Of a DNA stretch of 64,000 bases, positions 61,824-63,825 are shown piece by piece; the first letter of the stretch is position 1; the number at the start of each line of letters is the position of its first letter. The notes below the pieces were generated by a model. That model made no database searches. It was not told the DNA's origin and was given only the letters and a program-made list of their open reading frames with translations. The stretch spans positions 316,637 to 380,636 of the forward strand of contig JBFMAK010000001.1 in NCBI GenBank assembly GCA_040755695.1. Reading direction: 5' to 3'. The position numbers were made by a program, and so were the translations under genes. This DNA is from Candidatus Diapherotrites archaeon (lineage in GTDB: Archaea > Iainarchaeota > Iainarchaeia > Iainarchaeales > 1-14-0-10-31-34).

Positions 61824-62516
61824 TCAAATTTTTTTGTCATTGATTAATTCTATTATCATTTTAGGGAAAATTTTGCTTTCTGCTTTTCTTAGCCTTTCAT
61901 GGAAAGTTCTCCTTGGAATGCCTGTTATTTCGGCCAGATCATTTAAGGTTGCTTTTTTGGGCCATTCGTAATAGCCGTGAGCCAATGCATGCTTTAATGC
62001 AGTCAATTGCTTTTCTGTAAGCTGTCCAGAATCTGTTTCTGTTTTTAATTTTTTTATTTTTAGAATCTTTACTTCTCCGAATTCTTCTAATTCGCTTAGC
62101 AATCTTTTCAGATTTTTTGGGTTAGTTGAAATGAGAGAATGAATTTCAAAACCTTCTGTTACCTCTACAGGTTTATCATAAATTGCTCCTTTTTTAAGCA
62201 ACCGGTCATTAATAGAAGATAATGCATTAACCCTTATCAAGGCGAGATTTTCAAGACCTCTTCTATTAATGATTTCCACTTTATTTACATTTGGAAATCT
62301 TTTGAGGTAAGAAAAATAATTTTCTAATGCTGTCTTGCTTGGGCCATTGACTTTCCAGAATAATTGGTAATTAATCCTGTTCTTTTTTGCGCTTAAAACA
62401 TTGATATTGCTTACCTGCTCTAATTTTATTTCAGGAAATTTTCTTGTTGTTTCACTGGCAAAGCAGTCCTGATGGAATACAGCAATATCTGCAAGCTTAA
62501 AATTTCCTTTTCCCAT
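61824..62516 (-). CDS. HTH_10 (bacterio-opsin activator type) regulator
   Basis: 230 residues. The C-terminal DNA-binding part is the HTH_10/Bat type: LTEKQLTALKHALAHGYYEW, PKKATLNDLAEITGIPRRTF, HERLRKAESKIFPKMI. The N-terminal 170 residues form a mixed sensor domain of unknown ligand, with an ordered FKLADIAVFHQDCFASE start. Such regulators are common in archaea and activate or repress one nearby gene. This one is divergent from the small peptide and radical SAM/SPASM genes, with a palindrome GACATATGTC in the spacer, so it is the likely regulator of that cassette. A TATA-like TATATATAA lies about 25 nt upstream of its start. Confidence 0.88.
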   Translation of the reverse strand: MGKGNFKLADIAVFHQDCFASETTRKFPEIKLEQVSNINVLSAKKNRINYQLFWKVNGPSKTALENYFSYLKRFPNVNKVEIINRRGLENLALIRVNALSSINDRLLKKGAIYDKPVEVTEGFEIHSLISTNPKNLKRLLSELEEFGEVKILKIKKLKTETDSGQLTEKQLTALKHALAHGYYEWPKKATLNDLAEITGIPRRTFHERLRKAESKIFPKMIIELINDKKI

Positions 62517-62552
62517 ACAAATATCCTGTTTTTGTTATATATAATCCTTTTG

Positions 62553-62562
62553 GACATATGTC
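62553..62562. promoter_or_regulatory. 10-bp palindrome in the divergent spacer, possible operator
   Basis: GACATATGTC is perfectly palindromic, 37 bp from the HTH_10 start and 53 bp from the peptide start, next to the TATA-like sequence of the regulator. It is short, so chance occurrence is not excluded. Confidence 0.35.
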
Positions 62563-62614
62563 ACTATTCTGCATTTCTATTACTTAAGTTGGAATTATTT
62601 AGGAGGAATAAAAA

Positions 62615-62767
62615 ATGAAGGCTTTGTGTTTAGCTAAAGTAATTTTAGAAAAAAGATCAGTCAATGAAGTTGAAAATAGTGATGAAATATTGAGCAATAT
62701 CGCCGATAGTCACTCACTTAGAGGAAAAAATGGGGCTCTACAGGAATCTTGCCTCGGTTTTTTTTAG
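62615..62767 (+). CDS. 50-residue peptide, candidate RiPP precursor
   Basis: A 50-codon frame with the best Shine-Dalgarno sequence in the window (AGGAGG at 62601-62606, 8 nt before the ATG). The peptide reads MKALCLAKVILEKRSVNEVE, then NSDEILSNIADSHSL and a C-terminal RGKNGALQESCLGFF; the last 15 residues have one cysteine (C46). The charged middle (EVENSDEIL) could be a leader and the polar/aromatic end a core. It lies 35 nt upstream of the radical SAM/SPASM gene and divergent from the HTH_10 regulator, the usual precursor-maturase order. It has no similarity I recognise. Alternatives are a leader peptide that regulates the enzyme, or a small protein with another role. Confidence 0.55.
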   Translation: MKALCLAKVILEKRSVNEVENSDEILSNIADSHSLRGKNGALQESCLGFF

Positions 62768-62802
62768 TCGCCAATTAAAATTTTAATCAGTTGAAAATTG
62801 CA

Positions 62803-63825
62803 ATGATTGAAAAGCTTGTTATAGGTTATCTGATAACAAATTATTCCTGCAACAATAAATGCGAGTGGTGTTATGCCGCTCCAGCTGGATTCAATAAAAA
62901 AGAAATGGATTTAACCACTGCAAAAAATTCTTTAAAATTGATGAAAAGCGTTGGAATTAATTTTGTTGGTCTGTGCGGTGGAGACTCAACTTTATACAGT
63001 CATTTATTTGAGGTGCTTCTTTACGCTAAAAAATTAGGGCAAAAAGTTAATATTTATACGAATGGAAGAAAACTGGCTGAAAATGAATTTGTTTTGAAAT
63101 TAAAGGAAGCAGGAATAAACAGGGTTAATTTTTCAGTTCAGAGCTCTTCAGCTAAATTCCATGATGAAATGGTGCAAGTAAAAGGGGCTTTTAATGAAAC
63201 GGTTAAAGGAATCGAAAACTGCTTTCAAGAGGGAATTCCTTTAACCGTCCAGACAGTTGTTTGTCATACAAAATTTAAGATTTATAAAGAAATAATGGAT
63301 AAATTTTCTTATTCTGATCCTTGTTATGTTTTTTACAGGGAAATCCCGAAGGTAAACAAAAATTTGTTTAATGCAAAAGTGCTATCAAACAAAAAAACAG
63401 TTGAAATACTCAGGAAAATTGGAATATATGCAATTAAGAAAGATTACACTTTTGAACTGTTTTCGAGAATGCCTTTGTGCTGGTTTGATTCCAAAGATTT
63501 AGAATTATTTAAGGGAAAACTTTATGCCCATTGCCACATCCTATCTGGTCAAAATCTTGTAGTGGATGTTAATGGCAAAGTACTGCCCTGCCCTATATGG
63601 GTTGGTTGCCATTCAATGAATTTAATTAAAGGAAAAAAATTTACTTCAAAAAAAGAATTTTTAAGGCAGTGGAATGAAGGCTCACCAGTTAAACTCAGAA
63701 AAAAACTTCTGTACAAGCCATCAAACAATTGCATTGATTGCAAGTTTTGGGGCAAAGAATGCACTGCTGGCTGCCCATTAATTCCATTAGAATTGCCGGC
63801 AAAAAATCAGCAGCAAATTAACTGA
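62803..63825 (+). CDS. Radical SAM/SPASM peptide-modifying enzyme candidate
   Basis: 340 residues from the ATG at 62803, with TATA-like TTAAAATTTT about 25 nt upstream; the TTG at 62791 is an alternative. The core cluster motif is CNNKCEWC (C16, C20, C23). GLCGGDSTLY replaces the usual GGEP with GGD. A C-terminal SPASM domain is clear: C244, then G258-x4-C263, then CIDCKFWGKECTAGC (C310, C313, C320, C324), enough for auxiliary [4Fe-4S] clusters. SPASM enzymes such as AlbA and PqqE act on ribosomal peptides or on amino-acid side chains. The adjacent 50-residue peptide makes it a RiPP maturase candidate; tRNA or metabolite modification cannot be excluded. Confidence 0.85.
   Translation: MIEKLVIGYLITNYSCNNKCEWCYAAPAGFNKKEMDLTTAKNSLKLMKSVGINFVGLCGGDSTLYSHLFEVLLYAKKLGQKVNIYTNGRKLAENEFVLKLKEAGINRVNFSVQSSSAKFHDEMVQVKGAFNETVKGIENCFQEGIPLTVQTVVCHTKFKIYKEIMDKFSYSDPCYVFYREIPKVNKNLFNAKVLSNKKTVEILRKIGIYAIKKDYTFELFSRMPLCWFDSKDLELFKGKLYAHCHILSGQNLVVDVNGKVLPCPIWVGCHSMNLIKGKKFTSKKEFLRQWNEGSPVKLRKKLLYKPSNNCIDCKFWGKECTAGCPLIPLELPAKNQQQIN

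Follow-up and report, generated by a model that had tools for sequence, protein, structure and literature searches.

Background

The maturation of ribosomally synthesized and post-translationally modified peptides (RiPPs) by radical S-adenosyl methionine (SAM) enzymes covers a diverse chemistry (PMC8326336). In one group of closely comparable systems, the PapB/freyrasin ranthipeptides (NF047865; PMC9413430, PMC8326336), a radical SAM enzyme of about 330-350 amino acids with a SPASM domain is encoded near a precursor gene, and the core of the precursor carries Cys near acidic residues. Here we analyze a cassette with similar traits, located at the right end of a 64,000-nucleotide stretch (positions 316,637 to 380,636 of contig JBFMAK010000001.1, assembly GCA_040755695.1) from a Candidatus Diapherotrites archaeon, referred to below as the window. 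It consists of a 50-codon open reading frame (ORF) followed by a radical SAM gene, with an HTH_10 regulator gene in divergent position.

The cassette differs from the ranthipeptide systems in that CX3D repeats are absent and its host is an archaeon. A second point of comparison is the TvgB mapping study (PMC9062424), which lists Asp-Cys precursor peptides whose chemistry is unassigned there. The repeated Asp-Cys precursors of its clusters 59 and 115 resemble those of a sister clade of the present system, but the corresponding cassettes contain a recombinase or several radical SAM genes and hydrolases, and no ESCLG type is described. In archaea, lanthipeptides are reported as the experimentally confirmed RiPPs, whereas radical SAM RiPP clusters, in DPANN and other groups, are bulk predictions from antiSMASH (PMC12144867). 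A literature search, conducted mostly on papers available without subscription, returned no description of this peptide-enzyme family and no characterised radical SAM RiPP from DPANN archaea.

Comparison of the enzyme with its orthologs (clade A) and with a sister group (clade B) makes it highly probable that the locus is a compact RiPP-type cassette, in which the Cys-containing core of a precursor is modified by a radical SAM/SPASM-type enzyme. The pair of genes very probably represents an undescribed family of enzyme-modified ribosomal peptides. An initial annotation had proposed a RiPP-like system, and the co-conservation of a motif-bearing peptide beside the enzyme supports this view.

Organization of the locus

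The elements of the divergent pair are as follows.

61824-62516, minus strand: HTH_10 (Bat-type) transcription regulator, 230 amino acids, divergent from the peptide gene (Pfam PF04967, E 1e-20)
62552-62563, no strand: probable HTH_10 operator GGACATATGTCA, with the palindrome GACATATGTC at 62553-62562 (comparison of sites among homologs)
62601-62606, plus strand: Shine-Dalgarno sequence AGGAGG of the peptide gene (from sequence)
62615-62767, plus strand: candidate precursor peptide, 50 amino acids, MKALCLAKVILEKRSVNEVENSDEILSNIADSHSLRGKNGALQESCLGFF, ATG at 62615 (small-ORF ranking and alignments)
62744-62758, plus strand: core motif E44-S45-C46-L47-G48 (ESCL invariant in 4/4 clade A precursors)
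62803-63825, plus strand: radical SAM/SPASM-type maturase, 340 amino acids from ATG (Pfam, orthologs and tree; clade A support 100/99)
62848-62871, plus strand: CxxxCxxC (C16, C20, C23), predicted site of the SAM-binding 4Fe-4S cluster (invariant in the seven homologs covering the region)
62977-62985, plus strand: GGD, replacing the usual GGE of the SAM-binding GGEP motif (GGEP in the six other covering homologs)
63478-63774, plus strand: predicted auxiliary-cluster Cys, C226 (in RMPLCW), C244-X13-G-X4-C263 and C310-X2-C313-X6-C320-X3-C324 (alignment of homologs)

The frame, its AGGAGG site and the 35-nt gap between the peptide stop (62767) and the likely enzyme ATG (62803) are as initially annotated; an alternative TTG start at 62791 would give an enzyme of 344 residues. 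The stretch 61824-63825 has a GC content of 32.7%, against 38.0% for the window, and lies in the lowest 0.4% of 2-kb windows, which fits a joint acquisition of the whole stretch. As the contig spans 581 kb, the locus is unlikely to be an artefact of a stray contig. Signals of bacterial-type promoters or terminators do not exceed chance here.

Conservation of the peptide

The length of the ORF says little by itself, since 2.1% of shuffles of the 286-nt gap contain an ATG-initiated ORF of at least 50 codons, and it is conservation that decides. Clade A orthologs are found at loci L038, L049, L024/L039 and L025/L040, the last of which is cut at a contig end and has no upstream DNA. In the three further genomes where upstream DNA is available, an ORF of 41-72 amino acids lies directly 5' of the enzyme and keeps, near its C-terminus, the motif [E/Q]-S-C-[L/M]-[G/S] (L038, MKKMNAVGFAEELRKRRSAKTAEIPETDLEKKNLFSESCLGLCVE; L049, MNTLEFVKELKDRRSIKAEAPKFNLEKKGGLSESCLGLCVE; L024, MNKLEHLVEELRKNSLANPATETEKTFEESCMSLGTAFRESCLSMGDAFRQSCLSLGDSFKEICQNVDRNKK). 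Frame and motif thus persist in relatives that keep the enzyme, as the initial annotation had anticipated for a genuine precursor, and on these grounds we conclude that the 50-codon frame is a real gene. G-rich stretches resembling Shine-Dalgarno sequences also precede the orthologous peptides.

ESCL is invariant in the alignment of the four clade A precursors, two of the three further peptides carry SESCLGLCVE, and every motif Cys has Glu or Gln at position -2. In the Aenigmatarchaeota peptide (L024/L039), the motif occurs in three tandem 11-residue repeats followed by a degenerate fourth. The pattern [EQ]SC[LM][GS] is present in only 2 of 2196 background small ORFs, one being the window peptide itself. 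The single C-terminal cysteine initially reported, C46, is the Cys of the motif; a second one, C5, lies near the N-terminus. An EEL[R/K]-like leader is found in three of the four precursors; that of the window weakly resembles the EELRKRRS stretch of its orthologs.

Blind searches recovered the same ORFs. With the L038 peptide as query against 457 small ORFs of the window, the ORF at 62615 ranks first; conversely, the window peptide places the upstream ORF first among 84 small ORFs of L038, and a search between L038 and L024 likewise returns the correct ORF at the top. The window peptide leads by narrow margins (36 versus 32 and 31). Codon comparison of L038 and L049 (15 identical, 11 synonymous and 15 nonsynonymous codons; nonsynonymous rate dN 0.29, synonymous rate dS saturated) indicates that the peptide is under purifying selection in this pair, and the ten C-terminal codons differ only synonymously. 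No match to Pfam or NCBIfam was obtained for clade A or clade B precursors, and a peptide-profile search of four genomes, circular for the known copies, revealed no second copy.

The radical SAM enzyme

The enzyme belongs to Radical_SAM PF04055 (Pfam E 3.9e-23). Nine Cys do not vary among the enzymes that cover them: the three of CxxxCxxC, which is intact as initially described, and C226, C244, C263, C310, C320 and C324, these six being kept in all eight enzymes; C313 is kept in clade A. The canonical SPASM pattern reads CX9-15GX4C ... CX2CX5CX3C ... C. Most of its Cys have a counterpart in the window enzyme, whose arrangement is SPASM-like: CX6C stands in place of CX5C, the final Cys is absent and C226 is an additional invariant residue. 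The SPASM model PF13186 matches homologs only, and below its cut-off. GGD, noted from the start as a peculiarity, is real in this enzyme but is not a trait of the family. No RRE domain is present, as the protein has no N-terminal extension and CxxxCxxC begins at residue 16, and no PqqD-like gene was seen in the flanks, to which this search was confined. The structure model is of moderate quality (pLDDT 68.7), with a poorly predicted C-terminal domain.

Among solved structures, SkfB is the best sequence match in the PDB and SuiB the best fold match of the moderate model; both are RiPP maturases, at 16-19% identity, but carry the N-terminal RRE that the window enzyme lacks. Over its full length, the L024 enzyme can be aligned with the PapB ranthipeptide maturase model NF047865, but far below the family cut-off (E 6.7e-19; 68 bits against 340). 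This model is not among the 25 best NCBIfam matches of the window enzyme. The best NCBIfam match of the L038 enzyme is HxsC (TIGR03977, 5.7e-25), another peptide-linked radical SAM protein, but the score is 87.8 against a cut-off of 267.9, only the N-terminal half is involved, and neither His-Xaa-Ser repeats nor an HxsB partner is found. The window enzyme itself best matches the haem enzymes AhbD and NirJ (TIGR04545, TIGR04055), again through its N-terminal half, but at 87 bits against a cut-off of 500; the archaeal radical SAM proteins of 370-474 residues from the phylum of genome G089, included for comparison, group separately in the tree.

Further radical SAM loci were encountered. In a relative of the same order (G048, contig C9; L065 2365-18751 and L066 1750-7815), a His-Xaa-Ser repeat protein is surrounded, over about 32 kb, by no fewer than ten radical SAM genes. 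HxsB reaches 445 bits (NCBIfam cut-off 370) and HxsA4 58 (cut-off 55), so this small-genome archaeon has a peptide system of the HXS type. In the window's own genome, a radical SAM-like frame (L003, G000:C1:264224-264490) has an in-frame TAG inside the match and may be a broken gene or an assembly error.

Phylogeny, sister cassettes and distribution

Clade A orthologs belong to two other archaeal phyla and are 38-50% identical to the window enzyme. The first came from the phylum of genome G090: L022/L024 (39%, full length) and the contig-end fragment L023/L025. A scan of genome contigs assigned both to Aenigmatarchaeota and brought up a further ortholog, L038 (48%), from a Nanoarchaeia genome; the phylum of L038 yielded L049 and three more distant enzymes, L050-L052. 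In the tree, the enzymes of the window, L038, L049 and L024 form clade A (100/99) and L050-L052 form clade B (100/99); the two clades are joined with support 99/95, apart from other sampled archaeal radical SAM proteins including the AhbD-like type. Clustering with a family of known non-peptide substrate would have spoken against the initial annotation; the enzyme does not cluster with the sampled AhbD-like proteins, and its sister clade lies behind Cys-rich peptides.

At all three clade B loci, an Asp-Cys-rich peptide precedes the enzyme and an HExxH protein follows it. The precursors, of 58-66 amino acids, have Asp-Cys-rich ends (for instance ...YSDCDCIDCGDCDCDDCPI), in which Asp or Glu precedes most Cys, with Asp at -1 of most. 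The HExxH proteins, of about 220 amino acids, match nothing above Pfam or NCBIfam cut-offs and are possible leader peptidases:

L050, 4911-5576, minus strand: HExxH protein after the clade B enzyme
L051, 6822-7460: HExxH protein after the clade B enzyme
L052, 6828-7499: HExxH protein after the clade B enzyme

Members of either clade occur in 1 of 87 genomes of the window's own phylum, 2 of 156 in the G090 phylum and 5 of 371 in the L038 phylum, counts made with different queries and cut-offs. The 87 genomes of the own phylum contain no ortholog, only partial matches at 29-39%. With the cut-offs applied, no match came from the phyla of G087, G088 and G092. The G089 phylum likewise showed no recognisable member: the 19 matches there are mostly frames of 430-510 residues, and those included in the tree fall outside the clade. 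Single-sequence scans of genome and viral contigs found no relative, nor did alignment-based viral scans; plasmid and phage matches, about 23-28% identical, were set aside as generic radical SAM proteins. The cassette is a rare and patchily distributed trait among small archaeal genomes, and may be mobile.

The divergent regulator

The divergent HTH_10 gene and the intervening palindrome exist as initially annotated. The regulator scores 73.7 bits with PF04967 (cut-off 23.1), the sole such match in the genome, and GACATATGTC occurs once in the window where 0.02 are expected. However, their inclusion in the cassette does not hold for the family. The three clade A relatives with upstream DNA have a double-domain Lrp/AsnC protein in the divergent position, which makes HTH_10 a local partner, and the HTH_10 homologs of the phylum (31-39% identity) face other genes: another radical SAM gene, membrane proteins and a predicted substrate-binding protein. 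HTH_10 was accordingly rejected as a defining part. A TGACATATGTCA-like site (at most two mismatches) lies just upstream of six of the seven closest homologs, against a background of 0.045 per kb. Since the site recurs beside homologs facing unrelated genes, the palindrome is most likely a binding site of HTH_10 itself.

One close homolog (L054 2177-3424, genome G067), whose TGACATATGTCA site is perfect, lies opposite another radical SAM gene, of 415 amino acids, so that this type of regulator is found twice beside such genes. At L055, L058, L059 and L060, genes for two small membrane proteins (about 57 and 120 amino acids) recur as a pair opposite the homologs, behind a similar site.

Discussion

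We read the locus as a RiPP cassette because the peptide and enzyme are co-conserved in three further genomes of two other phyla, the peptides rank each other's ORFs first in blind searches and purifying selection acts on the peptide; because the L024/L039 core is multiplied in tandem and the sister clade, joined at 99/95, combines Cys-rich peptides with HExxH proteins; and because the nearest solved structures are RiPP maturases, the L024 enzyme aligns with the PapB model and the operator is conserved. A short candidate precursor gene accompanies the enzyme in 3/3 further clade A genomes with upstream DNA and in 3/3 clade B loci, with a leader and a conserved core motif.

Several observations weigh against this interpretation. 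Leader similarity between the window and L038 peptides is low (33% identity, with 36 of 5000 shuffles scoring as high) and the overall similarity to the L024 peptide is not significant, so that the link between peptides lies in the motif, the position and the repeated co-occurrence. GGD could lower the activity of the enzyme, no NCBIfam equivalog reaches its cut-off with it, and no peptidase, exporter or RRE/PqqD gene adjoins the cassette within the window.

In the proposed mechanism, HTH_10 bound at GACATATGTC would control its own gene, the divergent operon of peptide and enzyme, or both; we consider control of the cassette by HTH_10 likely. The 50-residue precursor would comprise an N-terminal leader and a C-terminal core (QESCLGFF), and is very likely the substrate of the enzyme, which would bind it without an RRE domain of its own. 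A 5'-deoxyadenosyl radical, together with auxiliary Fe-S clusters of the C-terminal domain, would then act on the core at its conserved Cys. Of the possible products, a thioether from this Cys to a nearby, perhaps acidic, residue would be the likeliest; such Cys-acid chemistry is a guess, prompted by the Glu/Gln at -2 of clade A motif Cys and the Asp/Glu before most clade B Cys.

The alternative that survives best concerns this last step and is compatible with a RiPP cassette: the Ser-Cys pair may undergo a change other than thioether formation, such as epimerisation, formylglycine-type oxidation or a C-C bond, and the product would be neither a ranthipeptide nor a sactipeptide. Radical SAM chemistry on RiPPs is broad enough for this (PMC8326336), the core has no acceptor placed as in the CX3D of PapB substrates, and conservation is limited to Glu/Gln, Ser, Cys and a hydrophobic residue. 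Yet clade B cores, dense in Cys beside Asp, would suit thioethers, and seven Cys are available for auxiliary clusters; we give this variant an appreciable chance, though less than an even one. Much less probable is a cofactor-type pathway, as for pyrroloquinoline quinone (PQQ) or mycofactocin, in which cross-linking and excision of the peptide end would yield a small redox cofactor. The short C-terminal core, an enzyme without RRE, the lack of a nearby exporter and the NCBIfam results, in which some homologs weakly resemble mycofactocin, PQQ and W_rSAM maturases over their full length, would agree with it, but the flanks read contain neither a PqqD-like protein nor an evident cofactor-using dehydrogenase, and the tandem cores of L024 and Cys-rich cores of clade B are unlike a single excised unit. 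That the ORF is instead a regulatory leader peptide, whose Cys-containing end controls translation of an enzyme with a substrate elsewhere, is very improbable: it is short and directly upstream, three of the four genomes place its motif near the stop codon and the enzyme start has no obvious Shine-Dalgarno sequence, but some 40 residues follow the first motif copy in the tandem array of L024/L039, clade B peptides are longer, Cys-rich and quite different at their ends, and the intergenic RNA folds in an ordinary way (z +1.5).

Returning to the RiPP cassette, a far-reaching version, which we hold to be unlikely in full, would see a new archaeal family whose cores, either Glu-Ser-Cys-Leu-Gly or Asp-Cys-rich, are made by one enzyme lineage in at least three small-genome archaeal phyla, forming Glu-x-Cys or Asp-Cys cross-links unlike those of known thioether peptides and serving as signals or weapons toward hosts or neighbours. 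The family offers a concrete, minimal two-gene system, with defined precursors and a testable core motif. It also includes a variant that naturally carries several cores, and its sister clade supplies a candidate peptidase. With it, the question of whether small-genome archaea make modified peptides becomes directly testable using one enzyme and one peptide.
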